A stretch of 64,000 nt of DNA. Source: Arthrobacter sp. Edens01. GTDB taxonomy: Bacteria; Actinomycetota; Actinomycetes; Actinomycetales; Micrococcaceae. A program made the translations under genes and the position numbers. Positions within the stretch are counted from its first letter, which is position 1, and every line of letters begins with the position of its first letter. Location: NCBI RefSeq assembly GCF_001307035.1, contig NZ_LKIU01000005.1, forward strand, positions 692,876 through 756,875, read 5' to 3'. The notes beneath the pieces were generated by a model. The model searched no databases. It worked only from the letters and a program-made list of their open reading frames with translations, and was not told the origin of the DNA. This document shows positions 306-36,200 of this stretch, in pieces.

Positions 306-3438
<3,133 letters not shown>

Positions 3439-3799: not shown

Positions 3800-3809
3800 A
3801 ACCATTAAT

Positions 3810-3844
3810 GTTTCAGGCCCCGCAACGCTGCGAGGGCCTGAAAC
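3810..3844 (+). terminator. Hairpin after first 5S gene
   Basis: A perfect 11-bp stem (GTTTCAGGCCC / GGGCCTGAAAC) begins 10 bases after the 5S gene, with a 13-base loop that can itself fold (CGCA/TGCG). The downstream sequence has only a weak T run (CTTTA). Its position right after the 5S gene makes an intrinsic terminator likely. Confidence 0.7.
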
Positions 3845-3868
3845 ACTTTAACAAGCAAAACAGTATTC

Positions 3869-3892
3869 GGGCCTGCACATGTGTGCGGGCCT
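3869..3892 (+). terminator. Second hairpin after the rRNA operon
   Basis: GGCCTGCACA and TGTGCGGGCC pair over about 10 bp with one G-U and a very tight loop, followed by TTCCGTGTCT. It is likely a back-up terminator for the rRNA operon. Confidence 0.45.
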
Positions 3893-4583
3893 TCCGTGTC
3901 TTACATCCCGCCCCTGGCATACCTCCAAGTGCCGGGCCCGGGGTTCCCACACTCTGTGACACCTGTCCACCTGGGGGACCACAGCAGATAACACGTGTCA
4001 CGACGGCTGGGAACGGCGGGCCGGCGTTCCCAGCCGGCGGCCCGCACCGCGGCCAAGCATGCCAACCCGGGCCTCGGCGGCCCGGCATTCCCACCTTCAG
4101 TTACACATGACCACTCGTGGGACCACACGGGTTAACAGGAGCACCACAGCGTGGGAACCACGGCCAGAAGGAGCCTAACCGCCCCCAAGCGGGTCTCCTG
4201 GGGAGCGACACCTCGTCCCTGCCCTGCCCTGCCCTGCCCTGCCCTGTCCCTGGCCCCGGCTCCCACCCGGCTCACGCCCCGCCCCGCCAGGGGCCCCCGC
4301 CCCGCCCAAGCCCCGGCCTACGGCTCCCGCCGGGACCCCCCGCCCCGCCCAAGCCCCGGCTCACGTCCCGCCCCGCCAGGGGGCCCCGCCCAAGCCCCGG
4401 CCTCCGGCCCCCGCCTGGCCCCGGCCTACGGCCCCCGCCCCCGGCACACGGAATCAGGGAGTGGTCAAAGCACCCCGCGAAACAGGGTAAGATAGTAGAG
4501 CATCACCGCCGCAGAGGGCTTCCGGAAACGGAAACAGGAAGCGGCGCGTGACCCAGGTTTTCCCGCGCAAGCGAGGACAAAGG
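3893..4583. repeat. GC-rich repeat-filled spacer between two 5S genes
   Basis: I see no gene here. The spacer contains a perfect 12-bp hairpin (4004-4015 with 4025-4036, CGGCTGGGAACG), a tandem run of the 5-mer GCCCT (five copies, 4221-4245), and imperfect C-rich repeats of the type CCCCGCCC-AAGCCCCGGC to about 4440. The plus strand is strongly cytosine-rich in the last part. Frames crossing it are Pro/Arg-rich artefacts. It is unusual for a spacer inside an rRNA locus. Confidence 0.7.
4462..4493 (+). promoter_or_regulatory. Possible promoter of the second 5S gene
   Basis: A TAAGAT hexamer at 4488-4493 resembles an actinobacterial -10 box. A weak -35-like TGGTCA lies at 4462-4467, so the spacing is long. 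It lies about 90 bases before the second 5S gene, on the far side of the C-rich repeat. The call rests on motif likeness only. Confidence 0.3.
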
Positions 4584-15081: not shown

Positions 15082-16314
15082 ATGAGCGAACGGGTGGTCA
15101 TCACCGGGATGGGGGCGCAGACTCCGCTCGGTGGGTCGTGGCCGCTGACCTGGGAGGCGCTCAAGGAAGGCAAGTCCGGCGTAGACCGGATTACCGCCTT
15201 CGACGCTTCCGAGTTCCCGACACGGATCGCTGCCGAGGTGAAGGGCTTCGACCCCGCGGCCTGGCTGCCGGTAAAGCGGATCAACCGGTCGTCGCGGGCG
15301 TCGCAGCTCGCCGTTGCGGCGGCCCGGGAAGCAGCGGCCGACGCCGGTTTCGGCACCACGCTGGAGGAGCTCGACGCCGCCGTCGTTATCAACAGCGCCG
15401 TCTCTGGATATCCGGAGGTGCAGGATGCCACCCGGCTGTTCGACGCCCAGGGCATCCGGCCGGTCAGCCCGAGTTTCGTGGCGTCGTCGCTCACCAATAT
15501 GCCGGCCTGCGAAGTCGCGATCGACCTCGCCGTACACGGTCCGGTGAATGCCAGCGCGCTCGCCTGCGCCAGCGGAACGCACGCCCTGTTGGAGGCGCGG
15601 CGCACGCTGCTGGCGGGGGACGCCGACGTCGTAATTGCCGGTGGAACGGATGCCGCGATCACGCCGGTGATGTTCGCAGGGCTGACCACCATGCGCGGCC
15701 TCTCGCGGAGCAATGACGTGCCGCAGGAGGCATCGCGCCCGTTCGACGTCGAGAGGGACGGGTTTGTGTTCGGCGAGGGTGCGGTGGTGTGTGTGATGGA
15801 GACGCTGGAGCACGCCCGTGCCCGCGGCGCCCGGGTGTACGCCGAGGTGCTCGGCGGGGCGATGACGTCCGACGCGTTCCACATTGTGGCGCCGGAGCCG
15901 AGCGGAAAGTATGCGGCCGAGGCGATTTCCCGGACGCTGGCGCAGGCCCGGTTGGACCCGGGGGAGGTGGATCTGGTCTGCGCGCACGGCACGTCAACGA
16001 AGGCCAATGACCGGACGGAAACGTTGGCGCTGCACTCCGTGTTCGGCGAGCATGCCGGGTCCCTGGCGGTGACGGCCCCGAAGTCGATGACCGGGCACCT
16101 GATTGGAGCCGCCGGAACGCTGGCGTCGCTGCTGTGTGCCATGTCGATCGTTGAAGGCGTGGTTCCGCCGACGATCAACTACACGACGCCGGACCCGGAA
16201 TGCGACCTGGACTATGTGCCCAACACTGCGCGGGAGCAGGAAGTGCAGTATGCCGTGACGAATGCGTTCGGGTTCGGCGGGCAGAACTGTGTGGTGGCGT
16301 TCGGGCGGGTTTAG
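15082..16314 (+). CDS. Beta-ketoacyl synthase (FabF/KAS II-like)
   Basis: A 410-aa condensing enzyme. The Cys-His-His triad is visible: Cys at about residue 162 in ALACASGTHALLEA, His in CAHGTSTKANDRTE and His in KSMTGHLIGAAG, with a C-terminal GGQNCVVAFG. Length and motifs fit FabF-type enzymes and PKS-II ketosynthases. ATG 15082 (MSERVVITGMG) is preceded by GAGGGAC; a GTG at 15070 overlapping the ligase stop is an alternative. No acyl carrier protein, malonyl transferase or dehydratase is nearby, so it would have to borrow these from primary fatty-acid synthesis. Confidence 0.88.
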   Translation: MSERVVITGMGAQTPLGGSWPLTWEALKEGKSGVDRITAFDASEFPTRIAAEVKGFDPAAWLPVKRINRSSRASQLAVAAAREAAADAGFGTTLEELDAAVVINSAVSGYPEVQDATRLFDAQGIRPVSPSFVASSLTNMPACEVAIDLAVHGPVNASALACASGTHALLEARRTLLAGDADVVIAGGTDAAITPVMFAGLTTMRGLSRSNDVPQEASRPFDVERDGFVFGEGAVVCVMETLEHARARGARVYAEVLGGAMTSDAFHIVAPEPSGKYAAEAISRTLAQARLDPGEVDLVCAHGTSTKANDRTETLALHSVFGEHAGSLAVTAPKSMTGHLIGAAGTLASLLCAMSIVEGVVPPTINYTTPDPECDLDYVPNTAREQEVQYAVTNAFGFGGQNCVVAFGRV

Positions 16315-16329
16315 GCCTTACCCCCTCCG

Positions 16330-16386
16330 CGAGATGACAGAAACTGCACGATAGAGGCCCTCTAACGTGCAGTTTCTGTCATCTCG
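16330..16386. terminator. Perfect 21-bp-arm palindrome between convergent genes
   Basis: Arms 16330-16350 (CGAGATGACAGAAACTGCACG) and 16366-16386 are perfectly complementary. The inner part (TAGAGG-C-CCTCTA) continues the stem. It lies between the ketosynthase and the convergent thioredoxin-like gene, so it is a likely bidirectional terminator. It is related in sequence to the palindrome at 11151. Confidence 0.8.
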
Positions 16387-16396
16387 GTGAAGGCTA

Positions 16397-17086
16397 TTAG
16401 CGGCCGAGGGCGGCGTCGAGCTGTTCCTGGATCTCGCTGTAGGCGCCTGTCGAAAGCTGGATTTCCTTACCGTCCAGCAGCAGCGTTGGGGTGTGCTGGA
16501 TCGAGAGGTCCTGGGCGTCCTGCAGGTCGCGGGCCACACGGTCCTTAATGGCGTCCGAGTTGTAGTCGGCTTCGAACTGCTCCATGTTCAGGCCGAGCTC
16601 TTCGGCGTAGCCGGCAAAGACATCGTCCACGCTGGACTCGGTCTTCCAGTCCTGCTGGTGCTCAAAGACCTTGGCGGCCATCTGCTCCATGGCACCCTGT
16701 TCGGCTGCGGCTTCCACGGCGCGGGCGGAGGGCTCGGCGTTCTGGTGCTTGGGCAGCGGGTAGTTCCGCACCACGATCTGCACCTGGTCGCCGTAGTCCG
16801 CCTTGGCCTGCTGGATCAGAGTGTCCATCATGGCGCAGTAGGGGCACTGGTAATCGGTGAACAAGACCAGCGTGGCCTGCGGGTCTGCAGGGTTGGTGAT
16901 GGTCCGGGCGTCGGCGGGGACCAGCTTGTCCTGCTGGTCTGCCGGGATCGAGAATTCCGCGGGGGCGCTGGTGGAGGTTGATGCTGAGGGGGACTCAGCG
17001 GGGGATTCTGCGGACGTGCCGCAGGAAACGATTCCGCCGCTAACCAGCAGCCCGGCAATGACTAGTGAGGGTACAACCCTGCGCAT
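16397..17086 (-). CDS. Secreted DsbA-like thiol-disulfide oxidoreductase, lipoprotein
   Basis: A 229-aa protein. The N-terminal signal peptide ends in a plausible lipobox (IVSC, lipid-modified Cys at residue 22), followed by a Ser/Pro/Thr-rich linker to about residue 45. A thioredoxin_4 domain carries the active site CPYC at residues 81-84 (TDYQCPYC) and the cis-proline in HTPTLLL. Such extracytoplasmic proteins form or shuffle disulfides in exported proteins. The ATG is preceded by GGAAAGGAAC. It is monocistronic, with long spacers on both sides. Confidence 0.88.
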   Translation of the reverse strand: MRRVVPSLVIAGLLVSGGIVSCGTSAESPAESPSASTSTSAPAEFSIPADQQDKLVPADARTITNPADPQATLVLFTDYQCPYCAMMDTLIQQAKADYGDQVQIVVRNYPLPKHQNAEPSARAVEAAAEQGAMEQMAAKVFEHQQDWKTESSVDDVFAGYAEELGLNMEQFEADYNSDAIKDRVARDLQDAQDLSIQHTPTLLLDGKEIQLSTGAYSEIQEQLDAALGR

Positions 17087-17429
17087 AGTTCCTTTCCTGG
17101 GTTGAGGAAGCGCGCAGCTCTAGGCGCGCAGGTAGTACGGAATGGGAAGTTTGTTTTCCCTTTAAATGTTTCCACCAGCCACAGGGGGACTGGAAGGCGG
17201 TTGCCGCGTGATCTTGCTCCACCGAGTTTGTGGCCGGGGCTACTGATGGTTCGTTTGGCCTGCAGACATTGCCCTCGGGCCTCTCTTTGTGAAGGGTTCC
17301 AACGCGGCCAACCGCTAGTTCTGCCGCCTCATGTGCCCAATTCCCGGAGTTGGAATGAAGGCCCCTCGAAAAAACTCCTTGTGGGACGCGAATCACGGTG
17401 CTAGGTTCTTGTCACTTCTAGAGGATCAG
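17087..17429. other. Intergenic region at the left edge of a low-GC operon
   Basis: No supported gene is seen. Base composition falls from strongly GC-rich to more balanced across this stretch. I see no tRNA, integrase or direct repeat that would mark an integration site. It must contain the promoter of the catabolic operon that starts at 17482. Confidence 0.5.
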
Positions 17430-17446
17430 GTCCTTGTATATAGGAC
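17430..17446. promoter_or_regulatory. Inverted repeat before the IclR-containing operon
   Basis: GTCCT-TGTATAT-AGGAC, a 5-7-5 inverted repeat, ends 35 bases before the first gene of the operon. The AT-rich centre and position suit an operator for the operon's own IclR regulator (inference). TATATAGGAC may overlap the -10 region. Confidence 0.4.
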
Positions 17447-17481
17447 ATTCACCTTCTTCGGACAACCAATCAAGGACGTTC

Positions 17482-19203
17482 ATGAGTGCCGCCGTTACAC
17501 AACAAAGACAAGCGCAACAGATTATGCATCCCCGGTGGCTAGGGGCCTTGCAGCCGAACAGGCTCAGTGCCGCCCGCAGCTTCGTAGCAAAGATGGTTCG
17601 GGAACATTGGGACATCCAGCTGGTCAATACCGAGGTGGATCGCCTGGGCAACGGCACCTTGATCTACAGGCTCGACACTCCGGGCGGTGTCATGTCATTT
17701 GTCGCATTCGTGTCTGAACCCCGTTCAGTCAATCGGACCTCCAGAATCATCGGGTCCAGTTGGGACATGTTGGGCAGCCTAATGGATGGCGAACCTGACT
17801 TGGACCGAATCGAACAGAACCGTCGCGAATTGCCCAAGCTCTATGCCGGCAGAGCTCCAGAAGGGACCCTGACATGGTTCCGCGCCAACCAAAGCACGCG
17901 CCTCTTCGAACATGTCCGTGAGTGCCTTGCCGCCGGGCGACAGCCGAGCAAAGAACTGGTTGCCGAAGTGGGCTACCTGATGCGTAACACAGGCCTCGAC
18001 GGAAATGGCACTTTTGGCACTCGAGACTTCCGGGAACTCGGCCCAGGCCACCCGCTTTCCACTCCCTATCACGCCCAAATGCTGTCCGCGTACCTGATGC
18101 GAGAGGTCTCCATTGACTTGGTACAGCACCTAGCAAAACTTGATCATGAAGGAGCGGCGCTACTCGCCCCAGATATCCGCCGGAGTATCGCCATTGGCAA
18201 CGGATCGGCATTGGGCCTGGTCCTATTTACCTTCAATCGGCCGCATCTGATCGGTACTCTCATTGAACGATACGAAAAGGCGCTGTCTCACGCTCTAGAC
18301 CTCCCGCTCGCAAGCGACGATCCCGCTTGGGATCGTCTGGAGGCTTTGGTCAACCGCTCAATTCTCTACCGTCAGCAGGATCTCGGTCGTTATGTGACGT
18401 TGCCTAGCGGCCCGCAGATATCCTCGGAACTCCGCTTTGTAAAGCGTCTTATTGACGCTGCACGTGGCGGGGGGTACCCTCTACCGCTCCGGGCGCTTGA
18501 GGAATCAATGGCCGGACGTGTCCTTCCGGAAACGATCGAGACCATTCACTCCATACTCTTGGAGCTGGACCCAGCGGCGACAGATAGGTTCATGGTCACT
18601 GCGGCGCTCGATGAGAGTCTTTTAACCGACGGTGCGCAGCGCATTGCGGCCCTCCGGCAAAGTATTCGACAGAATTTCTCTTGGGCAGTAGATATCCAAC
18701 TCGCTTCTGCAGATGAGGCCTCACGCGTTTGGTACAAGTCCAGGGATTCTGAGGAACCGCGGTGCGGGCCCTCAAATGAGGTCCCCGAAGGCACCATTGA
18801 CCTCTCCTTTGACATTCCACGAGAGATACAACGCCTGCTGCGAAGAATTGACCAAGATAGCCGACTCACGACTGTCGGCGCACTGTTAGTGGCAGACCCG
18901 ACCCTTGAGCAAATCGTTGCTCACGTGCAGAATTTGGCCGATCTTCCGTATGCCATCCCTCGTATGGACATTAAAGATGATTACCTGGTGCCCGTTCACC
19001 TCATCCACTTGCTCAACGGGTTTGCTTTCGGCGTAGATAAGACCGTCGACAGGCTCGAGCGTATCTTGCGCGGGGTCATCTTCGAGGGCGCACCCTACCG
19101 CGACGAACTGGGCTGTCCCGATGCCGCGGACTGGTACTGGGCTCCACACCACGATTCCTATGTCCTGCCCGTGGTTGAGACAGTCGAGTGGAGCGACAGG
19201 TAA
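17482..19203 (+). CDS. Uncharacterised 573-aa protein, first gene of the catabolic operon
   Basis: I do not recognise this family. It is a soluble protein without signal peptide or membrane segments, rich in charged helices, with a conserved-looking central part (EVGYLMRNTGLDGNGTFG at about residues 165-182) and a C-terminal DWYWAPHHDSYVLPVVE. ATG 17482 has AAGGAC four bases upstream; the frame is open back to a TTG at 17434, but that start would lie inside the inverted repeat. The stop is immediately followed by the IclR start, so the genes are co-transcribed. Codon use is less GC-biased than in neighbouring regions. Its place at the head of the operon suggests a catabolic enzyme, but no motif proves it. 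Confidence 0.75.
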   Translation: MSAAVTQQRQAQQIMHPRWLGALQPNRLSAARSFVAKMVREHWDIQLVNTEVDRLGNGTLIYRLDTPGGVMSFVAFVSEPRSVNRTSRIIGSSWDMLGSLMDGEPDLDRIEQNRRELPKLYAGRAPEGTLTWFRANQSTRLFEHVRECLAAGRQPSKELVAEVGYLMRNTGLDGNGTFGTRDFRELGPGHPLSTPYHAQMLSAYLMREVSIDLVQHLAKLDHEGAALLAPDIRRSIAIGNGSALGLVLFTFNRPHLIGTLIERYEKALSHALDLPLASDDPAWDRLEALVNRSILYRQQDLGRYVTLPSGPQISSELRFVKRLIDAARGGGYPLPLRALEESMAGRVLPETIETIHSILLELDPAATDRFMVTAALDESLLTDGAQRIAALRQSIRQNFSWAVDIQLASADEASRVWYKSRDSEEPRCGPSNEVPEGTIDLSFDIPREIQRLLRRIDQDSRLTTVGALLVADPTLEQIVAHVQNLADLPYAIPRMDIKDDYLVPVHLIHLLNGFAFGVDKTVDRLERILRGVIFEGAPYRDELGCPDAADWYWAPHHDSYVLPVVETVEWSDR

Positions 19204-19959
19204 ATGTCGATCGATAAGACATCAGCCGGGACCAAGCTACTGAGTACCGGTCTTAAAATGCTCCAGCTCATAGATGCGGTGGCTGACTACAAGAACGGCG
19301 TGGGAGTCTCCGAACTGGCGCGTCATCTTGGCTGGTCGCGCAACGTCACTCATCAGTACCTGACTAGCGGAGTCGCCGCAGATTGGTTGGTCCAGGGCGA
19401 GAATCAAAAATACTCTGTCGGCTTCCACGCCGCGGTAGTGGCTAGGAACGCCTCTCCTCACGGTAGGATCCGTCCACTGTTGCTGGCCGAGATGAACGAG
19501 CTAGTGCAGATCGTGAATGCGACGGTGTCTTACGCGGTGCTCGACAAGGAAACTCCGATCGTGATCGACCGCGTCGAACCCAACCGCGCAATCCAGATCA
19601 GGAGTGGACTGGAGTCACGTTTCTCACTTCGAACGTCGGCCTCCGGACAAGTGTTCCTAGCCCATGCGCCAGGACTTATTGAGTCTTCAGTTATAGACAG
19701 CGATGAGGAGGAACTGCAGGAGATCATCAGGCGTGTCAAGAGTCACGGCGCCTCCCGGGTGCACTCGCGTTGGCTTGGTGACGAGATCATCGCAATAGCG
19801 AGCCCTGTGTTCTTGCGGGGGCACTGTGTTGGCGCGTTGAGCGTCATCATGCCCGCCATTCGGAGCGATGCGGACGCTGTCGAGGCTGCTCTGGTTGCCT
19901 GCAGCAAATCGATCAACCATCAACTTCTGAACCAACAGAACGGAATGAGCCAGTGGTGA
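19204..19959 (+). CDS. IclR-family transcriptional regulator
   Basis: A 251-aa protein. The N-terminal winged helix (LKMLQLIDAVADYKNGVGVS, then ELARHLGWSRNVTHQYLTSG) is followed by an IclR-type effector domain (RIRPLLLAEMNELVQ, SLRTSASGQVFLAHAP, IASPVFLRGHCVGALSV). IclR proteins usually control catabolic operons in response to an aromatic or organic-acid ligand. Its ATG follows the upstream stop directly, and its own stop overlaps the next start (GTGA). It probably senses the substrate imported by the downstream transporter. Confidence 0.88.
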   Translation: MSIDKTSAGTKLLSTGLKMLQLIDAVADYKNGVGVSELARHLGWSRNVTHQYLTSGVAADWLVQGENQKYSVGFHAAVVARNASPHGRIRPLLLAEMNELVQIVNATVSYAVLDKETPIVIDRVEPNRAIQIRSGLESRFSLRTSASGQVFLAHAPGLIESSVIDSDEEELQEIIRRVKSHGASRVHSRWLGDEIIAIASPVFLRGHCVGALSVIMPAIRSDADAVEAALVACSKSINHQLLNQQNGMSQW

Positions 19960-20639
19960 ACTCAATCAATCCCGGCGAGGACCATCTCGACGTCGTTGAC
20001 CTCGAAGTAGTCAACAATGGACCCCTTCTGCTTAAGCGCCGCGAACTCACGCTTATCAGCGAGCGGGTGTTCCAACATTACGGGGTAGCCAACGGTGCTT
20101 GGGCCGCAGCCCGTAACAACTTCTTGGACGTTGTCGTGATCCTCAAGGAGGATGCCCTAACAGGCTTAGCAGAGCTCGCAGAATCGTCATCTCCGCTGCA
20201 CCCCGGTGGCCTGGGCGTTGAGGTTTCGAGTGATGGCCGACGGATCGATGCTCGCCACCAGCACGCGTTGGTCGTAGGAGCCATCGTCGGCAACGCCATT
20301 GAATCACAGCTGGCGGACTCCCACACAGTCTCGCTCTCTGTGGTTCATGTCGCTAGCCCCCGGTTCCTCGTCGGGATTGTGCATCGCCTGGCAAGAAGAG
20401 GCGTGCAGGTACGGATTGTCGAGGGTGAGAACTCGGCAACCTTCCTAGCCCAGGGGGCGATCCACAGTGCGCAACCATCCAGCCACGGCGATCTCGTGGA
20501 AGGGATCACTGCTGCTCCGTCGCTGTGGTGGCCCATCTATAACGCCTCGACCCGCGCGCTAAGCGACGTCACCGAGATATCCCGGTTTCACACTGGCAAC
20601 ACCCCCTCACCTACCGCTCGCCGCCTGGCGATCAAGTAA
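19956..20639 (+). CDS. Uncharacterised 227-aa protein of the catabolic operon
   Basis: I do not recognise a family. It is a soluble alpha/beta-looking protein without signal or membrane segments; notable stretches are GVANGAWAAARNNF, HALVVGAIVGNAIESQLAD and RLARRGVQVRIVEGEN. GTG 19956 overlaps the IclR stop by four bases (GTGA), which argues for true translation. It lies between IclR and the dipeptidase-like gene, nine bases before the latter. Membership of this unit suggests a role in the same pathway, but no catalytic motif can be claimed. Confidence 0.7.
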   Translation: MNSINPGEDHLDVVDLEVVNNGPLLLKRRELTLISERVFQHYGVANGAWAAARNNFLDVVVILKEDALTGLAELAESSSPLHPGGLGVEVSSDGRRIDARHQHALVVGAIVGNAIESQLADSHTVSLSVVHVASPRFLVGIVHRLARRGVQVRIVEGENSATFLAQGAIHSAQPSSHGDLVEGITAAPSLWWPIYNASTRALSDVTEISRFHTGNTPSPTARRLAIK

Positions 20640-20648
20640 GGAAACGGC

Positions 20649-21611
20649 ATGTATCTGGATAGCTTGATCTGTTCACGCCTAGACAGGGACGGTCTCAAAG
20701 GCCTGGTTGACGGCGGAGTCCGATGTGTCACTGTCACCTGTGGTTTTTGGGAAGACGCAACCGAGTCCATGGATTCGCTTGTCTCCTGGCACCGTCTCAT
20801 CGCCGACAACTCAGACCTAGCCGGACTAGTCGTTTCTCCAGCCGACGTCGACGCCATCGCTGGCCAGGGCAGGGTGGCCATCATCCTGGGGTTCCAGAAC
20901 AGTGCATTCCTGCAAGGGCGCCTAGGCTACGTCGAGATGTTCCACAAGATGGGAGTGCGTGTAGCCCAGCTGACTTACAACATCCAAAACGATGTCGGTA
21001 GCAGCTGTTATGACCCAGAGGATGCGGGACTGAGCCGGTTCGGCGAAGAAGTGGTGGGGGAAATGAACCGTGTCGGCATGGTGGTAGACCTGTCCCACGT
21101 CGGAAACCGCACTTCTCTTGATGCCATCCAGGCCTCGACGAAGCCCGTTGCGGTGACCCACGCTAACTGCTCGGATCTCGTTGATCACCCCCGCAACAAG
21201 CCAGCCCACATCCTAAAAGAACTTGCGGGACGCGGCGGCATGGTCGGGCTGACCGTTTATCACAACATCACGCGCGGTTATAACGGGTCCCCGGACCAGT
21301 GGGCATCCATGGTGGCCAAGACTGTTGACCTAATCGGTGTTGACCACGTCGGCATTGGCACCGACGACAACCAAGGAGGCGACCCGGCATTTTTGACATG
21401 GATGCGCAACGGCCGCTGGAGCTTCCGTGAGCAACTCGGTGCGAGCGTGGGCCCCACGTTTCCACGGAGTGGAAAGACAGATTGGTACAAGGGGCCTGAA
21501 GACTTTCATGTGTTTGGCTCAGCCTTGCGGGGGGTTGGGTTCAGTGAAGACGAAACCTGCAAGATCCTCTGGGGAAACTGGAACCGCTTTTATAAGGAGG
21601 CCATGAAATGA
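20649..21611 (+). CDS. Membrane-dipeptidase-like (peptidase M19) protein with altered metal site
   Basis: A 320-aa TIM-barrel amidohydrolase-like protein. M19 hallmarks are present: VVDLSHVGNRT (His about 150), PVAVTHAN (His about 171) and VDHVGIGTDD. Other ligands are missing: the N-terminal His-X-Asp is replaced (MYLDSLICSR), and the bridging glutamate is Gln83 in LGFQNS. It may therefore bind one metal or act on something other than a dipeptide. The start ATG has AAGGAAA upstream. Its stop overlaps the ABC ATPase start (ATGA), linking it to uptake. Family membership is confident, activity is not. Confidence 0.82.
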   Translation: MYLDSLICSRLDRDGLKGLVDGGVRCVTVTCGFWEDATESMDSLVSWHRLIADNSDLAGLVVSPADVDAIAGQGRVAIILGFQNSAFLQGRLGYVEMFHKMGVRVAQLTYNIQNDVGSSCYDPEDAGLSRFGEEVVGEMNRVGMVVDLSHVGNRTSLDAIQASTKPVAVTHANCSDLVDHPRNKPAHILKELAGRGGMVGLTVYHNITRGYNGSPDQWASMVAKTVDLIGVDHVGIGTDDNQGGDPAFLTWMRNGRWSFREQLGASVGPTFPRSGKTDWYKGPEDFHVFGSALRGVGFSEDETCKILWGNWNRFYKEAMK

Positions 21612-22441
21612 CAGCGCACACTACGGCATTGCCGGACACTAAAGCCACAAATGTCTCGATCCAGTCCGTCACAAAGCGATTTCACCGGGCAGGCAAGACC
21701 ATCCAGGCATTGGCAGAGACCTCGCTGGATTTCGAGACTGGGAAGTTCGTCTCACTCATAGGACCCAGCGGATGCGGCAAATCCACGCTGCTCAAAATCA
21801 TGGCGGGGTTAGAACCCGCCACCACTGGGCGTGTAGTTATCGATGGGAAGGTGCTAAGGGGCCCACAGGACGGTGTTAGTGTCGCTTTCCAGAAACCCAC
21901 CCTCCTTCCCTGGCGCAACGTCATGGACAACCTGCTCCTGCCCATTCAGATTTCCGGTAAGCGCATCGATTCTGACATTCAGGAGCGTGCCAAGCAACTT
22001 CTCACGGTAATGGGCTTAGAGGACTTCTCCAGCCATTATCCCCGGGAGCTCTCTGGCGGCATGGAACAACGGGCTGCTATCGCTCGGTCGCTGATATCGA
22101 GGCCATCCCTATTGCTCATGGACGAGCCGTTCGGCGCGCTAGACGAGTTTACGCGGGAAGACCTAAACGATGAGCTGCTCTCACTGTGGGCCAGGGAGCC
22201 CAAGACACTGGTCTTCGTCACGCACAGTATCTCCGAGGCCGTATACCTTTCCGACCAAATAGTGGTCATGAAGGCGCGTCCCGGAGTAGTCCACGAAGTC
22301 ATCGATGTGCCACTGGCACGTCCACGGCACAGAAAGATCCGCAACAGCCAGGAGTTTTACGACCTAATCCGCACAGTGCGGATCAGTCTCGAAGAAGCCA
22401 AATCGGGTAATAACGCAGAGCAGAAACGGAAGGCACTATGA
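21608..22441 (+). CDS. ABC transporter ATPase, nitrate/sulfonate/taurine (SsuB/TauB) type
   Basis: A 277-aa import ATPase. Walker A GPSGCGKST is at residues 52-60, the Q-loop is in VAFQKPTLLPWRNV, the signature is LSGGMEQRAAIARSL and Walker B LLLMDEPFGALDEFTRE. PTLLPWRNV and GALDEFTRE are typical of the SsuB/TauB/ThiZ branch. Start and stop both overlap neighbouring genes by four bases (ATGA). It energises the permease and THI5-like binding protein that follow. Confidence 0.92.
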   Translation: MTAHTTALPDTKATNVSIQSVTKRFHRAGKTIQALAETSLDFETGKFVSLIGPSGCGKSTLLKIMAGLEPATTGRVVIDGKVLRGPQDGVSVAFQKPTLLPWRNVMDNLLLPIQISGKRIDSDIQERAKQLLTVMGLEDFSSHYPRELSGGMEQRAAIARSLISRPSLLLMDEPFGALDEFTREDLNDELLSLWAREPKTLVFVTHSISEAVYLSDQIVVMKARPGVVHEVIDVPLARPRHRKIRNSQEFYDLIRTVRISLEEAKSGNNAEQKRKAL

Positions 22442-23289
22442 GCATTCTCGAGAAGCCCTCGCAACCCGCCAGCTCGGGAGCGGTTATGACGACCGCTGTT
22501 GATGAAGTGCCTAACCGGCTGGCGCTTACCCTAAGGTCGACATCGCTCCGTGCAGGCATCATCGCGGTGGCCCTGTTAGTCGGTGGGTTCACTCTTTGGA
22601 CTATTGCGACTGAGAACGAATGGGTGTCCCCGCTAGTGGTTGCTCCGCCCGACGAGGTTGGCAAGGCCCTCGGAGACATGTTTGTCACTGGCGCGGTCTG
22701 GAAGAACTTGGGTGCTACCGCATACGTCACACTTATCGGGTTCAGCGTGGCAACCGCAACTGCGCTTCTAGTCAGTTTCGTGTTTGTGTTCTCGGAGTCT
22801 CTGCAGAAGGCGATCTACCCGTTTCTAGTCATCATCCAGACCTTCCCAAAGGTAGCCATCGCACCGTTGATCATTGCATCTTTCGGGTACGGACTACTGC
22901 CCAAGGTCATCTTGGCAGCTCTGATGGCCTTTTTCCCGATCCTTGTTAACTCCATGGTCGGCTTGACCAACATCAACGCGGACCAGCTCAACCTGTTCAA
23001 GTCAATGCGTGCAAATACCTGGCAGGTGCTGTTCAAGCTTAGGATCCCGAATGCCATCAGCTATATCCTGCCGGCCCTGAATACGGCTTTGGTTCTGTCA
23101 CTCATTGGCACGATCGTCGCGGAGTTCGTCTCCGCCAGACAGGGCCTCGGGTTCGCTATCCAGTCGGCAACCCAAACCGGCAGTGTAGCCACCGTTTATG
23201 CGTTGCTCGTCGTGCTCGGAGGCTTCGGCGCGATGATCTGGGTCGTCATGGCCATCCTTAACCGCGTTTTTAGAAACTATAAGCAGTAG
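22438..23289 (+). CDS. ABC transporter permease (SsuC/TauC type)
   Basis: A 283-aa membrane protein with about six helices and the cytoplasmic coupling motif around ANTWQVLFKLRIPNAISYI (residues 195-213), as in the BPD_transp_1 family of sulfonate/nitrate/pyrimidine-precursor importers. The start overlaps the ATPase stop. A long N-terminal cytoplasmic stretch (about 40 residues) precedes the first helix. Confidence 0.92.
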   Translation: MSILEKPSQPASSGAVMTTAVDEVPNRLALTLRSTSLRAGIIAVALLVGGFTLWTIATENEWVSPLVVAPPDEVGKALGDMFVTGAVWKNLGATAYVTLIGFSVATATALLVSFVFVFSESLQKAIYPFLVIIQTFPKVAIAPLIIASFGYGLLPKVILAALMAFFPILVNSMVGLTNINADQLNLFKSMRANTWQVLFKLRIPNAISYILPALNTALVLSLIGTIVAEFVSARQGLGFAIQSATQTGSVATVYALLVVLGGFGAMIWVVMAILNRVFRNYKQ

Positions 23290-23301
23290 GAAGGTCACAT
23301 C

Positions 23302-24396
23302 ATGAAAACTAGGAATCTCGCTATGCCGTTGGCTGTGCTCGCGGTGAGCGTAGGGCTCACCGGTTGCGGAGACTCAGCCTCTGAAACCGCGGGACTGAGC
23401 CGAGTCACTTTCGCGGTCGCGGATCAGTCGTTGAGTGCCACATCAGCCAGCTATGCCACAGTTCCGGGCGCCATGGGCTACTTCGAGGAAGCCGGCCTTG
23501 AGGTTGAGATGCAACCGGTCGAAACGGCCCTGGCCGCCATCCAGTCTGTCGCCTCAGGGAACTCGTTTTGCACATACGCGTCGACTTACAGCGCTCTATC
23601 CGCCATTAAGGACGACCCGAACCTAGTCATCGTCGGAACAACTACTGGCAATATCTTTAGAGTCATTGCTCCTGAATCGCTGGATATCAAGTCCGCCGGT
23701 GATCTCGCCGGCAAGAGCATCGGCGTTTCTTCGTTGACCGGTATAGCCGCCGACATCGCCAGCATTGGCATGCGGAAGGACGGTGTGGAGCCTGAAGAGG
23801 ACCAGTTTCTGGCAGTAGGATATGGGGCCCAGACGGCACAGGCCTTCAAGAACAACGACATCCAAGCTTACTCCGGATTTGACGGACCAAACATGGTGAT
23901 CGAATCCCTGCTCGGTGAACCTATGGTAGACGTGGCATCCGAGGCGGATTCGATGACCGGTACCTCGTCCCTGGTTTGCCGTGCTGAGGATGTGGCCGAA
24001 AAACCGGACATGGTGACAGGACTGTGGACGGCGTTCTTCAAGGCTTTGGTCTTTTCTAAGGAGAACCCCGAGGCAGCCATAAAAATGCACTGGGAAAAGT
24101 TTCCTTCAAGCAAACCCACGCAGGGCGACGAATCAGCAAACCTAGAGCTCGCAACAGGTCAACTGGGTTTGCGCATGGAAACGACTGCGCAGGTGGGATC
24201 GGCCGGGTTTTACGGCGAACAGACTCCAGCAGACATGCAGCGCTTGATCGATGAGGGGGTTGAGGGAGGAATCCTCCACGGTTCAACGTCAGACTTTGCA
24301 TTGAAAAAGATGTTTAACTACGACCTCGTCGAGGGATATAACGATTTCGACGCAGATGCGGTGATTCAGCAGGCGCGAGATTGGGCGGACGAGTGA
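23302..24396 (+). CDS. Substrate-binding lipoprotein (SsuA/NMT1-THI5-like)
   Basis: A 364-aa extracytoplasmic binding protein with a lipobox (VGLTGC, Cys 22). Two-lobed NMT1/THI5 features include FEEAGLEVEMQPVE, DLAGKSIGVSS and a region of paired lobes to about residue 340. Relatives bind sulfonates, taurine, nitrate or pyrimidine-type thiamine precursors. The start has AGGAAGG nine bases upstream. The stop overlaps the GTG start of the RidA gene. The true ligand is probably the compound hydrolysed by this operon. Confidence 0.9.
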   Translation: MKTRNLAMPLAVLAVSVGLTGCGDSASETAGLSRVTFAVADQSLSATSASYATVPGAMGYFEEAGLEVEMQPVETALAAIQSVASGNSFCTYASTYSALSAIKDDPNLVIVGTTTGNIFRVIAPESLDIKSAGDLAGKSIGVSSLTGIAADIASIGMRKDGVEPEEDQFLAVGYGAQTAQAFKNNDIQAYSGFDGPNMVIESLLGEPMVDVASEADSMTGTSSLVCRAEDVAEKPDMVTGLWTAFFKALVFSKENPEAAIKMHWEKFPSSKPTQGDESANLELATGQLGLRMETTAQVGSAGFYGEQTPADMQRLIDEGVEGGILHGSTSDFALKKMFNYDLVEGYNDFDADAVIQQARDWADE

Positions 24397-24746
24397 CTAA
24401 TGCAGTACCGACCCCACCCATGTTCTCTCGTATCGGGGAGATCGTATGGACAGGTGGGCATCTTCCCCGACTTCCCGACGGCACAATCCCGGAGTCTTTC
24501 GCGGATCAAGCAAGGTTAGTGCTCGAGAAGATCGCACGGACACTTGAGACGGCCGGTTCCGGTATCGACCGGCTGGTTAAGGTTAATGCCTACCTGTCCG
24601 ATCTTGATGACCTACCAGAGTTCAACGACATCTATATCAGGTTCCTGAAAGGCTGCCGGCTGCCGGTGAGGACGTCAGTGGAGGTGACCCGTTTCAGGGA
24701 CGCGTCGAAGCTAGAGATCGAAGTTATCGCGAGTTCCCGCGCATGA
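24393..24746 (+). CDS. RidA/YjgF-family protein
   Basis: A 117-aa Rid-family protein; members hydrolyse reactive enamines/imines and often sit in amino-acid or pyrimidine degradation operons. The motif region LPVRTSVEVTRFRDASKLEIEVIA contains the arginine that contacts the substrate carboxylate in RidA. I chose GTG 24393, which overlaps the binding-protein stop (GTGA). It is the last gene of the operon. A RidA protein here suggests that the pathway produces an imine or enamine intermediate. Confidence 0.85.
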   Translation: MTNAVPTPPMFSRIGEIVWTGGHLPRLPDGTIPESFADQARLVLEKIARTLETAGSGIDRLVKVNAYLSDLDDLPEFNDIYIRFLKGCRLPVRTSVEVTRFRDASKLEIEVIASSRA

Positions 24747-24858
24747 GCATGCCTGAGTTTGATGCAGGGCTACTCCTCCAACTGAGGTTCGGAGAGCCTG
24801 AAGAGGCGGGTTCAACCTGTCAGGGGCTAACGCTCTAGAGTTACGCAGACTTGGCAAG

Positions 24859-24913
24859 GTTTGGGGAGGTAATGTCGGTCCAAACGTGTGTATCCGACGT
24901 TACCTCCCCAAAC
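24859..24913. terminator. 20-bp-arm palindrome between convergent genes
   Basis: GTTTGGGGAGGTAATGTCGG (24859-24878) pairs with 24894-24913 with a single T-G wobble and a 15-base loop. It lies between the RidA gene and the convergent MpaB-like gene, so it is a probable bidirectional terminator. Confidence 0.75.
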
Positions 24914-24931
24914 GTCCGTGAGGGGGCGAAA

Positions 24932-25858
24932 TCAGACGTCCGAACGAGTTTCCCCTGGTTCCTGAGCCAACCGGGCAATGCGCTCGCGGGCGGACCGTTC
25001 CGACGGGCCCATATCCCCAAGCCCGAACCGGATAACCCGCAGCACGAGTTTCACCGGGCCGTGCACCGGCAGCTTGAAAGGACCGAGATGCGGTTCGCGG
25101 AGGCCGAGCATTTCGCGGTGCCGGGGTTCCAGGGAAGCGACGGCGCCGGCGAAGAGGACACGGTAGCCGATCATCTGATTGCGGGGCAGGGGAGGGCGGC
25201 GCAGGAAGCGCACCACTTCCTCGACGGTCGGGCTGGATCGCAGTTCGGGGTCGAACGCGGCCATCTGTTTGCGCAGCCCGGCCAGGTCCCGTGGCGGGTT
25301 GTCTATCTGCATCAGTTCACCTGCGGTCGCCCACTCGGCGACGTATTGGTCCGGTCCGCCCGGGATTGGTCCGCCGAACTCGATGTGGGAGGCCAGGAAG
25401 GCATCCGTGAAGGCGAGATGCACCCAGCGGGCGAGCTCGGGATCGTTCGCTGAGTACGGCCGTTCCATCCCGGAAGCGTCCTCATAGGTGCCTTGAACCC
25501 GTTCGTGCAGGCGCAGCACCCAGTTCGAGGCGCTGCGTGCCGCCGTCGTATCCCCGTAGGTGACGGTGAAGATCCAGCGGATGGTTCCGGCGAGCCGGCC
25601 TAGCGGGTCTTCCTTGTAGTTGGAGTAGTCGCGGACGCCGGCCATCGCGCCGGGGTGCAGTGCCTGCAGCAGCAGGGCCCGGATGCCGGCGATGATGGTG
25701 GTCATGGATCCGTGGACCGCCCACACTGCGGATCCCGGTCCGTAGTAACCGCGGTCGGTGCCATTGGCGAGCTCCAGTTCCCACTCTGGAATGGTCTCTG
25801 AGTTGTTGCTGAACGTGCCGACCAGCTGCCGGCGCCAGGATTCAAGAAGCTTGCCCAT
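24932..25858 (-). CDS. Oxygenase MpaB-family / DUF2236 protein
   Basis: A 308-aa protein of the DUF2236 family (rubber oxygenase Lcp/MpaB-like fold). Family-typical stretches: GPGSAVWAVHGSMTTIIAGIR, LLLQALHPGAMAGVRDYSNY, DPLGRLAGTIRWIFTVTYGD, with candidate heme or metal histidines at HGS, HPG and VHLAFTDAFLASH. Actinobacteria carry many such genes of unknown substrate. It is monocistronic and convergent with the catabolic operon. Confidence 0.85.
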   Translation of the reverse strand: MGKLLESWRRQLVGTFSNNSETIPEWELELANGTDRGYYGPGSAVWAVHGSMTTIIAGIRALLLQALHPGAMAGVRDYSNYKEDPLGRLAGTIRWIFTVTYGDTTAARSASNWVLRLHERVQGTYEDASGMERPYSANDPELARWVHLAFTDAFLASHIEFGGPIPGGPDQYVAEWATAGELMQIDNPPRDLAGLRKQMAAFDPELRSSPTVEEVVRFLRRPPLPRNQMIGYRVLFAGAVASLEPRHREMLGLREPHLGPFKLPVHGPVKLVLRVIRFGLGDMGPSERSARERIARLAQEPGETRSDV

Positions 25859-32929: not shown

Positions 32930-33330
32930 TATGCGCTGTTATCGGCGTGAATTTTAGACATAAGGCCGTGGAGGTGGGTTTCGCTGAAGTTCTTAGAATT
33001 GTGGCAGTGGTACTCGTACTCCAGACATCCTGCGGGGTCAGCGGCCCATTTTTCTTGGGATGCCATTGAAAAGCGGCGTCAGTGTGAGTCGTTTGCAGAT
33101 CATTGATGCCTGGTTCAATTCTCTTCCCCGAACAGACTGGACACCCATTCGCCCCGTGCGTCCGGTCCATGATTCTTGCCGTCCATTCGTGGTTAAGTTG
33201 GCAGATCCACCAAACTGACTTCGTGCTGCCGGGGGAAAGCGAGTCCGGTTGGATCTCTCCGTTCCTGGTTTAGTGCCATTCGTTGACGACCTCCGGAAAC
33301 GACTCCTCCTGGATAAGGTTGCAGGCGCAC
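32930..33330 (-). pseudogene. Decayed treble-clef zinc-ribbon gene (DUF4379-like)
   Basis: On the minus strand one frame reads FPEVVNEWH, then an in-frame TAA at about 33270, then TRNGEIQPDSLSPGSTKSVWW, CQLNHEWTARIMDRTHGANG, CPVCSGKR and FQWHPKKNGPLTPQDV before losing similarity. EWHxxKNG ... HEW ... CPxCSG are the repeat hallmarks of DUF4379 zinc-ribbon proteins, often nuclease-linked. The stop codon, lack of a start and loss of frame show that only about two repeats survive. It lies directly upstream of the Jet operon and may be a relic of an accessory or defence gene. Confidence 0.75.
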
Positions 33331-33349
33331 AACGGAGACAACATCTTCC

Positions 33350-34015
33350 TTATTCTGCGTCGTGAAATTCCATCGGTACCGCATCGGGATCGCCGTCTGG
33401 AGCTAGAAAAACGTGCATATGGCCGCCCCCAGAATCTATGGTCAGAGTATCCAATTGGGCCGCTCCAGCCTGCCAAAGACGAACTGCAGCGTCGCGTCGC
33501 TCAGCAACACTGCCAAGCAAAAGGTTCCGATCCTCGGCAGGGCTTGATGAGAGTCGGTTGTAGTCCTGGACCGCCGTTAGAAGTAACTGGGCCGCACCGA
33601 CGAAGGCTTCCTGCGCAACCGACTGATCGCTCGTTCCCACTTTAACAGTCTCGAAAGCCGTCGCCGCAGCCCTGAGGTCGCGCATCCATGCGTCGACATC
33701 ACCTGTATCAGCAAACGGGGGGCTATCAGCTTGCTCCACGGGTACTGCAGTTGCTAGCCCCTCCAAAGCGCGTGCCATGCGTCCATGTGCCGTTTCTGCT
33801 GCCAATCCAAGGTCTTTGGTGATCTCAGCCTTTTCAAGAGCCTGACCTTTAGAAAGCTCTTTGGCGATAGCTTCGACTGACCCGGCGGCGGGCGCGATCT
33901 CAGCAGTCGTTGCTCGCATACTCATGGATGCAGCGACCGCTCCTACAAAGATGACTGCAATGGTTATTAGAACAATCATCCATGTAAGAGAAAACGTGCG
34001 CGTCTTGCGGTTCAA
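33350..34015 (-). CDS. Membrane-anchored protein of unknown function
   Basis: A 221-aa protein with one N-terminal membrane segment (about residues 10-32, SLTWMIVLITIAVIFVGAVA) and a helical extracytoplasmic part rich in Ala, Glu and Asp. It has no Cys lipobox and no enzyme motif, and I do not recognise a family. The C-terminus ends HMHVFLAPDGDPDAV. Signal-anchor topology and location next to the secreted ThuA-FIMAH protein suggest a cell-surface role. Base composition is less GC-rich than flanking housekeeping genes. Confidence 0.65.
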   Translation of the reverse strand: MNRKTRTFSLTWMIVLITIAVIFVGAVAASMSMRATTAEIAPAAGSVEAIAKELSKGQALEKAEITKDLGLAAETAHGRMARALEGLATAVPVEQADSPPFADTGDVDAWMRDLRAAATAFETVKVGTSDQSVAQEAFVGAAQLLLTAVQDYNRLSSSPAEDRNLLLGSVAERRDAAVRLWQAGAAQLDTLTIDSGGGHMHVFLAPDGDPDAVPMEFHDAE

Positions 34016-34120
34016 AAGATGAGGCCACCTTTGTGGAGGATGGTGTTCTGGAGCTAGGCGGTTTTGTCGCGATACACGGCTTATACATCGCGAATGTGTG
34101 CAGTAGTTTCCGTAAGGCCA

Positions 34121-34160
34121 TGCCGTACTACGTCCCGCGGTGGCAGTACGCAGTACGGCA
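34121..34160. terminator. Hairpin downstream of the ThuA gene
   Basis: TGCCGTACTACGT (34121-34133) pairs with ACGCAGTACGGCA (34148-34160) with one mismatch and a 14-base loop. It begins 12 bases after the ThuA-like gene stop on the minus strand and before the membrane protein gene. It is a probable terminator. Confidence 0.55.
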
Positions 34161-34171
34161 GGCTCTTGCAG

Positions 34172-35314
34172 CTAGTTATGCTCTTCTTGCCAAATCTGTA
34201 AGTCACGAACTTTCTCAGTCAGCAGAACCTGCGCCTGAGATCCACGGGCGACGTGAGCCTTAACCTGAGCCGCGGCTGCATTGAGCTTATCTGCCGAATC
34301 AGCGTGCCGACCAGCCTCCGCGAGGTCCTTTGCCTTATCCAATTGTTTGGTCACCTGTGCCGCCGCTTTCGCAGAGACCGTTCCTTCGGCAACCAGGTCA
34401 CCAATCAATGATTCGACTTCGTGCCACGTGACGCAGTCGCCACCTCCACTGACTGCGCCAGCGGACCAGGAGATACCCCCTAGAAGGTGCTGTAGGAAGG
34501 CAGGGTCTGTGTAAGATGCTTCGGTGTGTCCTCCGCCGGTGTACCACGAACGAGATGACTCGAAGTTATGGCACCAAGCTATCGGATGATCGGAACCCAT
34601 CGCACCACGACGAGCGTTGTAGGTTGTCTCGTCGAGATTTATGAGAACACGAACAGCGTCGCGCGGACTCTGATTGAAGTTGTACCACTCATCAAAACGC
34701 GTCCATGTTTCGGGGAGATGCTCTGTTGAAGGATGGGTCCGGTCCTCAACCAGCTGAGAAGCAGTCTGCTGCTCTGGATGGCTGATGAATCGAGCACCAC
34801 CGCCGGTCAACTGGCCATACCACGGGACAGTGTGCATAGAATCTGTCGCCGCGTGAACACCTGCAAAACCACCACCGGAACGGATATATCCCTGAAAAGC
34901 GGCCAACTCAGTTTCATTTAGAAGCGTCGGCGTTGCAGGGTCGAGGGAATTGGTTCCATCAACCGTGGAGACGAAGACAATGGTTTCGTATTTGGCAAGA
35001 TCAGAGGAGGTCGTAAAGGGTGTGCTGGGTAGGGTCCGGTCGGGCTGTCCCTGATTACCCGGTGACGTTGCAGGATCCCACACGTCAACACTGAACCCAT
35101 TGGCGTTACCAAGTGCCATGATGGCGGTAGTGGCTTCATCAATACTGCTGTGACGAAAGCCCGTCGTTTTTCCTACGACGAGCACATCGTAAGGTTCCGC
35201 CATTCCAATCTGATCGGAACTGGCTTCAGCTTGAGCGGGAGTCGTTGCTAACACGGGCACGACAAGCGCTACCCCACATGCTCCGAGGGCTGCCTGACTG
35301 ATAAATCGCTTCAT
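34172..35314 (-). CDS. Secreted ThuA-domain protein with C-terminal FIMAH domain
   Basis: A 380-aa exported protein. The signal peptide (MKRFISQAALGACGVALVV..., cleavage probably after TPAQA at about 29) precedes a ThuA/trehalose-utilisation-like domain. That domain runs over residues 43-280, with LVVGKTTGFRHSSIDEA, IRSGGGFAGVHAATDS, WYGQLTGGGARFISHPE and HPIAWCHNFESSRSWYTGGGHT. The last 80 residues form a helical FIMAH domain (WHEVESLIGDLVAEGTVS, QLDKAKDLAEAGRHADSADK). In secreted actinobacterial proteins this pairing is usually linked to glycan degradation or binding. The catalytic residues of ThuA domains are not settled. Confidence 0.87.
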   Translation of the reverse strand: MKRFISQAALGACGVALVVPVLATTPAQAEASSDQIGMAEPYDVLVVGKTTGFRHSSIDEATTAIMALGNANGFSVDVWDPATSPGNQGQPDRTLPSTPFTTSSDLAKYETIVFVSTVDGTNSLDPATPTLLNETELAAFQGYIRSGGGFAGVHAATDSMHTVPWYGQLTGGGARFISHPEQQTASQLVEDRTHPSTEHLPETWTRFDEWYNFNQSPRDAVRVLINLDETTYNARRGAMGSDHPIAWCHNFESSRSWYTGGGHTEASYTDPAFLQHLLGGISWSAGAVSGGGDCVTWHEVESLIGDLVAEGTVSAKAAAQVTKQLDKAKDLAEAGRHADSADKLNAAAAQVKAHVARGSQAQVLLTEKVRDLQIWQEEHN

Positions 35315-36200
35315 TGCGCTCCTTAGTCATTCAATCGACAATGCCCCTGGATCGGCGATTACCGAACTGGGCACACGATCTGAAGCCGTCGAAGCAGCAC
35401 CCAGCGCACCTCACGAGGAATAAGTGCTGGTCGACAACATATTCAGCAGGTTAGCTTCTAACCTGCTGAAAGGTCTAGGTAAAAGTGATTTTTAGATTTT
35501 CCCAGACCAGAGCGATCGTATGACTTTCATGTCGGGCAGCACTCACTAGCGAGATGTCTTTTCAGACGATCCCGCCGTTTGGTTGAATAGGCCCGGTTGA
35601 ATAGGCCCGGCCAACAGCATTCCAGCGCTCAGGCTTCCTGGCTGAAGGCGGCATCGAAAGAGGTGTCCGATGGCGCGAAGCCGAAGCGTTTCATGACGTC
35701 AGCGCCCGGAAGCTGTCCTCCCAGGGAACGTCGCCGCCGCCAACGCCGAAACGGAACGGCGCAGTTGTTGTGTCAGGAGCGGAGCACCCCGAAATCGGTG
35801 GAAGCCGCGGGAACGCTTCCAGCGTTCGTTCGCGGAACAAGTTATGGACTTAGGTCCCCCCAATTCGCCCCGACGGGCAAGCCGGTGAAAACCAGTGCGG
35901 CAAACGGTGGATAGGGAAGAGCAGGCTCCTGGCTTCGCGGTAAACGAGTTCCTTGGTGTCCAGCTCCCGCAGGAGGCCGGGACGCTCTGTTCGCCGCTAT
36001 GTTCCTGTTGGACCGCAGCCGTCCCGGGACCGCCAAATGGTGCTCTATGGCCACCTGCGGGAACAGGTCCAAGGCGCGTGCGCACCAGGAACGCAGACGC
36101 GGCGCTCCAGCGTCCTAGGGAAGCGTAAGAGCATCCGCCGACGCCGGTCAGGGACGTCCGGTCCTATCCGGCGGGCCGCTCGGCGGTTAGCGTGGAAAGT
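35315..36200. other. Non-coding and decayed stretch
   Basis: No intact gene is convincing. 35581-35608 is a perfect tandem duplication of a 14-mer (GGTTGAATAGGCCC). Between about 35629 and 36075 the minus strand gives protein-like pieces in shifting frames, such as RALDLFPQVAIEHHLAVPG, LRELDTKELVYREARSLLF and GADVMKRFGFAPSDTSFD ending at 35629. These are interrupted by stops and look like one degraded gene of unknown family. The rest (35315-35580) is AT-richer and empty apart from a hairpin. Confidence 0.45.
35442..35470. terminator. Hairpin upstream of ThuA gene
   Basis: A perfect 12-bp stem (TTCAGCAGGTTA / TAACCTGCTGAA) with a 5-base loop, 128 bases upstream of the ThuA gene start. It is either the terminator of the decayed gene upstream on the minus strand or an operator; neither strand has a long T run directly after it. 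Confidence 0.5.

Follow-up and report, generated by a model that had tools for sequence, protein, structure and literature searches.

An inserted operon of Arthrobacter sp. Edens01 carries a conserved core of protein A, protein B and a non-canonical M19 dipeptidase homologue

What does an operon do when two of its proteins could be assigned to no family, and which compound does it handle? The question is raised by a tight operon of eight genes on the forward strand (positions 17482-24746) of a 64,000-nucleotide stretch of the 3.64 Mb genome of Arthrobacter sp. Edens01 (contig NZ_LKIU01000005.1), hereafter the window, to which coordinates refer unless another locus is named. The open reading frame (ORF) list and Pfam place here protein A, an IclR-family regulator, protein B, an M19 peptidase homologue, the three genes of an ATP-binding cassette (ABC) importer and a RidA-family protein, so that all genes named in an initial annotation of the stretch are present. 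We favour, at about an even chance, the reading that the operon is a horizontally acquired catabolic cassette, composed of a fixed A-B plus M19-fold core, an IclR regulator and an exchangeable importer, in which A-B would act first on an imported nitrogen compound.

A profile of protein A (17482-19203, +; 573 aa), the central conserved component, was searched against a named genome collection and gave 244 relatives among 284 pattern matches, the best 80 of which were kept. Protein A was also found in 168 plasmid records, and annotated neighbourhoods were opened for 12 of them (L008, the same record as L037, was unannotated and was excluded from the final set). The window, the 80 genome loci and five plasmid loci form the 86 loci of the window's own clade (A1), as opposed to a sister clade (A2); the loci span up to about 10 kb on each side of A, some being shorter, and gene families were counted with profile models built from clustered ORFs. 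Protein A, protein B (19956-20639, +; 227 aa, GTG start), the M19 homologue (20649-21611, +; Peptidase_M19, 222.8 bits against a cut-off of 26) and the IclR regulator (19204-19959, +; IclR_C 41 bits, HTH_IclR 29.2 bits) each occur in 86/86 A1 loci, and the gene-neighbourhood comparison that the initial annotation had proposed thus confirmed their co-conservation. A, B and M19 share one strand in 72/72 unfused loci, M19 is no more than 3 kb away in 85 of the 86 (7 kb in the exception, L059), and IclR is located at the far end of the operon in six. In 14 loci A and B form a single polypeptide, with hosts that include some Leucobacter, Labedella, Galactobacter, Sediminivirga, Brevibacterium, Microbacterium and Pedococcus. 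Leucobacter sp. L43 carries two A1 cassettes (L015 and L062), which differ in their carriers and in that A and B are fused in only one of them. A survey of the phylum found A in 5/396 genomes and strong matches to the B profile in 2/396, both A-positive. A and B are not orphans: the core pair is found together across many bacteria.

The genes around this core are less constant and comprise RidA (37/86), a thiamine pyrophosphate (TPP)-dependent enzyme (32/86), an aldehyde dehydrogenase (24/86), a class III aminotransferase (23/86) and an XRE-cupin regulator (19/86), together with recurring PuuR-like regulators and genes resembling γ-aminobutyrate (GABA) transaminase and succinate-semialdehyde dehydrogenase (SSADH). 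The first four of these counts support the catabolic theme, directed at a nitrogen compound, that had been proposed for the operon. As a control, the same models were applied to 17 A2 loci that span 12 kb or more, where the IclR, TPP, aminotransferase and XRE-cupin models gave no match, while RidA was found in 3, aldehyde dehydrogenase in 12 and M19 in 16.

No Pfam family was found for protein A at E-values up to 1 and no significant NCBIfam family (sole match at E 0.21), and a PDB sequence search returned nothing convincing. An AlphaFold2 model based on 69 aligned sequences (from a total of 81, i.e., the window and L013-L092) was confident, with a predicted local distance difference test (pLDDT) score of 86.0 and a predicted template modelling (pTM) score of 0.89, and its comparison with the PDB in Foldseek gave no match at E ≤ 0.001; the best one (E 0.16, template modelling score about 0.1) was dismissed as chance. 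The start of the protein, CAAGGACGTTCATGAGT, is common to the window, L013 and L014, and conservation across the 69 rows is 97% or higher at 44 polar or aromatic positions, whose letters are DEHRKNQSTYCW. Twelve positions, S29, R88, N136, S138, Y165, R168, R207, N240, W417, S420, E425 and R427, are also invariant in 45 A2 rows. The description of A as unknown holds with respect to Pfam and NCBIfam families, but not in the sense of an orphan, given its presence in 86/86 loci and in a sister clade.

Protein B could be placed only at a distance. The window copy has PLDc_2 as its sole Pfam match (E 0.17), no Pfam match to Ldh_2 (PF02615) or DUF3726 (PF12525) and a single NCBIfam match at E 0.091; no paper on DUF3726 was found. 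A tblastn search against plasmids gave no match, because B diverges fast, and its relatives were recovered by profile instead. B-type ORFs of distant loci do score for Ldh_2 or DUF3726, e.g., the one of L094 reaches 31 bits for Ldh_2, under the gathering score of 38.8. In hhalign, B matched Ldh_2 with a probability of 38.6 (E 3.2e-4) and A1 B matched the DUF3726 members, which are the partners of A in A2, with a probability of 84.2 (E 7.4e-6, 184 columns); the A2 partners of L132 and L168 scored 103.2 and 54.3 bits against the DUF3726 cut-off of 22.1. The natural A-B fusion of L042 was modelled with a pLDDT of 86.3 and a pTM of 0.90, and its leading Foldseek match was the malate dehydrogenase 3i0p (probability 1.00, E 0.031). 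Among the 50 matches listed (of 164), 26 were malate/lactate, sulfolactate, ureidoglycolate, diketogulonate or piperideine-carboxylate-type enzymes, members of the Ldh_2 family, although none had an E-value below 0.03 and thus none passes 0.001. These matches are absent from the list obtained with A alone and were therefore assigned to the B part of the fusion. By profile, and by fold as part of the fusion model, B has the N-terminal region in common with the Ldh_2 and DUF3726 families, but it falls short of the 333-position Ldh_2 model by about 100 aa. It is probably a distant relative of DUF3726 and type-II malate dehydrogenases, conserved in 86/86 loci, and only the absence of a Pfam family for the window copy, which lies below Pfam detection, agrees with its former label as unknown. 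The DUF3726 members matched Ldh_2 with a probability of only 5.0 (E 0.008), which weakens a simple claim of common ancestry.

The third core member belongs to the M19 family by score, as the earlier description of a dipeptidase-like barrel hydrolase implied, but lacks the canonical bridging Glu and catalytic His. Gln83, Asn84 and Tyr110 are each present in 86/86 A1 loci, and the replacements of Glu by Gln and of His by Tyr are visible in the alignment with 3id7 (2i5g was also aligned), at positions that in canonical dipeptidases presumably hold the bridging metal-ligand Glu and the catalytic His. The N-terminal His-x-Asp, which we take to be metal ligands, is replaced by D4-x-L6-x-C8 (L6 in 86/86 and C8 in 85/86 loci; placed by eye, the 3id7 alignment starting later), and no conserved His occurs upstream of residue 150 in the 86 loci. 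H150, H171, R182 and D239, presumably the remaining His ligands, the substrate Arg and the catalytic Asp, are kept in 86/86 A1 loci and in A2 too, and the 38 A2 rows also have Gln83 and Asn84 (38/38) and Tyr110 (36, with 2 gaps). The reading as an ordinary dipeptidase was rejected on the residues found, and dipeptidase function must be regarded as unproven for this sequence type. Gln, Asn and Tyr are likewise shared by 2i5g, presumably P. aeruginosa PA5396, and by the third M19 gene of Pseudomonas sp. 10-1B (L178, 2720-3832; Gln/Tyr type), which adjoins a 686-aa ORF for a flavoenzyme of the OYE/FadH family and a 176-aa ORF, with no A or B within the 14 kb examined. The neighbourhood is similar to the arrangement given in PMC12093977, where pepD and a hypothetical gene precede dgcAB (dimethylglycine catabolism), and the pepD-type M19 beside dgcAB is of the same subfamily. 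This subfamily may have a link with the breakdown of N-methyl compounds or amines; we found no paper naming two of PA5396, PA5397 and dgcA together.

The operon is an insertion. Comparison of flanks with genus relatives, together with guanine-cytosine (GC) content, delimits an inserted segment at approximately 17246-24958. Relatives without the segment match the window up to 17245-17249 and again from 24950-24978 (in L106, for instance, window positions 17245 and 24972 correspond to 2464 and 2387). The gene for A was found in only 1/29 genus genomes, namely its own, while the gene to the right of the operon (24932-25858) is present in 28/29, its own included. Both flanks without the operon, i.e., an empty site, were detected in 12/24 relatives' loci (left flank within 15850-17249), the flank matches being no more than about 350 bases apart in nine relatives, and about 650-830 bases apart in three (L105, L112, and L119); in the remaining 12 the left flank was not found within the roughly 1.5 kb of sequence examined. 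The transfer that had first been suggested from base composition is thus supported by more than the lower GC content of the segment, which was itself confirmed (0.569 vs. 0.672 in the nearby flanks). The nearest cassettes, in Paeniglutamicibacter (L013) and Arthrobacter sp. C2 (L014), share 77.8-77.9% identity over about 7.4 kb and have a GC content of 0.642-0.645; judged from these values, the operon does not appear to derive recently from either. Given this GC gap, the window copy may have passed through a lower-GC host. Elsewhere in the window, 1-4000 and 33001-36000 have a GC content of 0.54-0.58, compared with about 0.61-0.71 in most of it, and are possibly further islands.

Downstream of M19 lie an ABC importer ATPase (21608-22441, +; SsuB/TauB/NrtD-like, ABC_tran 108.7 bits), an SsuC-like permease (22438-23289, +; BPD_transp_1 84.7 bits), an NMT1/THI5-like substrate-binding protein (23302-24396, +; NMT1 65.9 bits against a cut-off of 20.5), probably a lipoprotein from a signal judged by eye, and a RidA-family imine/enamine deaminase (24381-24746, +; Ribonuc_L-PSP 73.7 bits against 27.3, but 64.4 bits for TIGR00004, under the cut-off of 106.25). 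An importer of the proposed sulfonate/pyrimidine type is not a constant feature, since A1 hosts combine the same core with five carrier types, namely NMT1, PotD (SBP_bac_8), SBP_bac_3, TctC and MFS (each typed in one or two loci). The binding protein matches the Pfam family NMT1, whereas the NCBIfam cut-offs for SsuABC sulfonate importers were not reached by the binding protein (SsuA_fam, 50.8 vs. 163.5 bits), the permease (SsuC, 80.3 vs. 347) or the ATPase (180.3 vs. 395), the last of which stayed under the cut-off of every one of the 25 NCBIfam models listed of 198. As for the packing of the genes, four-base overlaps couple IclR/B, M19/ATPase and ATPase/permease, and possibly the binding protein and RidA, which overlap by 4 bases if RidA starts at the alternative GTG (24393) and by 16 if at the TTG (24381). 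The coupling described earlier does not extend to A and IclR, which abut, or to B/M19 and permease/binding protein, separated by 9 and 12 bases, respectively. A long hairpin (24859-24913, +; 20-base arms, -46.3 kcal/mol, z -5.51, 0/200 shuffles equally stable) stands between the operon and the next gene and is probably a terminator or border feature; a repeated mobile-element end was ruled out, as its arms are single-copy genome-wide at up to 2 mismatches.

The sister clade offers the closest comparison. In A2 the identity of A is 28-33%, and a FastTree phylogeny of 131 sequences separates 86 A1 from 45 A2 (supports 0.942 and 1.0, branch 0.49); the 45 rows represent 42 different genes (L139/L172, L140/L173, and L155/L171 are duplicates), and neighbourhoods were judged in the 17 loci of at least 12 kb, 28 of the 45 being short (about 4.6 kb). 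M19 was found in 38/45 loci and B in 12/45, since A2 B proteins are too distant for the A1-trained model. In Aminobacter pAA01, Phaeobacter (two), Shinella and Sulfitobacter the order is LysR, aldehyde dehydrogenase, M19, A and DUF3726. An Ldh oxidoreductase comes next in three of the five cassettes, four contain a BCCT or glycine-betaine ABC carrier, two have sarcosine-oxidase genes nearby, and purU and a dimethylsulfoniopropionate demethylase each occur in one. An A2 aldehyde dehydrogenase comes closest, below the cut-off, to 2,5-dioxovalerate dehydrogenase. On a Mesorhizobium ciceri plasmid (L135, 10019-12420), A and a B-sized gene are located inside an ABC-transporter/aldehyde dehydrogenase operon; L135 and L139/L172 form a long side branch of A2. 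In the class of Mesobaculum (Alphaproteobacteria), A was found in 53/385 genomes, mostly in its A2 form (only two full-length matches had A1-range scores). Seven of these A-bearing genomes measure 1.2-1.6 Mb, and four small-genome loci, each with M19, A and B, have a GC content of 0.28-0.32 (L169, L170, and L171) or 0.36 (L168), from which size and composition we infer SAR11 hosts.

A bacterial pathway for homarine (N-methylpicolinate), described in 2026, reportedly involves the operon homABCDER, leads to N-methylglutamate and glutamate, and is said to occur in Rhodobacterales and SAR11. LysR, the betaine carriers, the SoxA/B-family genes, the aldehyde dehydrogenase and the five A2 enzymes agree with this composition, so that A2 is fairly likely to be the hom operon. 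The 2026 paper (Ferrer-Gonzalez et al., Nat Microbiol) is cited in PMC13390433. The candidate hom cassettes of Roseobacters, Rhizobiales and SAR11-sized genomes share with the window homologous A, B and M19 genes, mostly adjacent where the locus is long enough, and common invariant residues in A and M19. Measured against a hom composition drawn largely from the A2 loci, the window has A, a DUF3726-type B and the M19 core; its operon differs in having IclR and, by Pfam, none of LysR, aldehyde dehydrogenase or Ldh. The former statement that no known pathway fits holds only in part, as the sister clade resembles the cited homarine operon.

Under the cassette reading, the first step on the imported compound would most likely be catalysed by A, which has no recognised fold and many invariant polar residues. 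B, some 100 residues shorter than the type-II malate-dehydrogenase-like fold from which it would derive, would be its obligate partner. What A-B produces, perhaps an intermediate of N-acyl, N-formyl or imine type, could then serve as substrate for the M19 protein with its altered metal site, and RidA would hydrolyse an enamine or imine set free on the way. In the cassettes of other hosts, class III aminotransferases, TPP-dependent decarboxylase-like enzymes and SSADH-like enzymes would carry the products to central metabolism.

The kinship with A2 raises the alternative that the window operon is itself a homarine or other betaine operon with the same reaction, for which the common A-B-M19 core and invariant residues, the betaine carriers and SoxA/SoxB-family genes adjoining A2 loci, and the citation of a homarine pathway speak. 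We consider this improbable in view of the neighbours found with one query per family (E 1e-8) in the 86 A1 and the 17 longer A2 loci. BCCT (0/86 vs. 5/17), OpuAC (0/86 vs. 3/17), SoxA (0/86 vs. 5/17) and purU (0/86 vs. 1/17) are all missing from A1, betaine carriers jointly occurring in 8/17 A2 loci; the Ldh oxidoreductase is found in 1/86 vs. 5/17; and LysR occurs in 4/86 vs. 9/17, whereas IclR is universal in A1. Residues of A that are invariant in A1 are switched in A2 (Y121E in 42/45, D173Y in 42, T177K in 42, Q199E in 39, S242T in 42, N512K in 41, and D523P in 45), and one A1 together with one A2 copy in Pseudomonas sp. 10-1B argue for different jobs. These differences in carriers, regulator, accessory genes and invariant residues point to another, probably non-quaternary substrate, and the lack of betaine carriers in A1 together with its mixed carrier types suggests a small nitrogen carboxylate, probably amino-acid-like or N-heterocyclic rather than a quaternary betaine.

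Two further pathways would retain the catabolic theme. In a polyamine/GABA-type pathway, the core would strip a substituent before a GABA transaminase and SSADH take over, in accordance with the PotD-like binding protein found by the same kind of query in 51/86 A1 loci (1/17 in A2) and with the GABA-transaminase-like, SSADH-like and PuuR-like neighbours. In PMC4960864, smb20383 is named as spermidine/putrescine transport; of the S. meliloti tags SMb20379-20388 it was the only one found in the literature, and the assignment of these tags to an A1 locus is a guess. The available parts of PMC3691474 and PMC4744692 contain nothing on the A-B-M19 core. This pathway seems doubtful to us, given the NMT1-, SBP_bac_3- or MFS-type carriers of the window and of other actinobacterial loci, and the presence of an aminotransferase in only 23 A1 loci. 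The operon could alternatively serve the utilisation of dipeptides or cyclic peptides, imported and then hydrolysed by the M19 protein with A and B as accessories, as the M19 fold and the amino-acid-type binding protein (SBP_bac_3) of the one such locus typed would allow. This would be surprising, however, with Gln83 and Tyr110 in all 86 loci at the places of the canonical bridging Glu and catalytic His, and with no conserved His before residue 150, and a lone dipeptidase would leave the fixed A-B pair unexplained.

Several observations weigh against the catabolic cassette that we favour. The five carrier types point to no single substrate class, and the window operon contains no aminotransferase, TPP enzyme or aldehyde dehydrogenase (the operon only was considered; the rest of the genome was not searched). 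The activity and ligand of the A-B-M19 core are predicted assignments, and the missing PDB match of the modelled A comes from Foldseek as the single basis. A is present without M19 within 21.6 kb in L135. In the phylum survey, three A-positive genomes out of five (G129, G151, and G263, all of A2 type) went undetected by the B profile, which also matched two A-negative genomes weakly (E about 4e-4). The genome sample is limited to the best 80 out of 244 relatives, with 164 others outside it, and several of the loci are from close kin.

A-B might tentatively be seen as an undescribed kind of enzyme that pairs a new catalytic chain, whose fold is absent from the PDB, with a partner of dehydrogenase origin. 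Its targets would be N-heterocyclic acids, in which it would open or cleave a ring or a C-N bond; A2 would act on betaines such as homarine, and A1 on unrecognised non-quaternary nitrogen compounds used by rhizobia, Azospirillum, Pseudomonas and actinobacteria. The annotation 'membrane dipeptidase' in such operons should be taken as a warning, as canonical catalytic residues are missing. The 80 genome loci show the four-gene core in 41 named genera, and if A2 is the homarine operon, the window clade would represent the same machinery turned to another compound, with residue switches and exchanged importers that would make its substrate directly testable.

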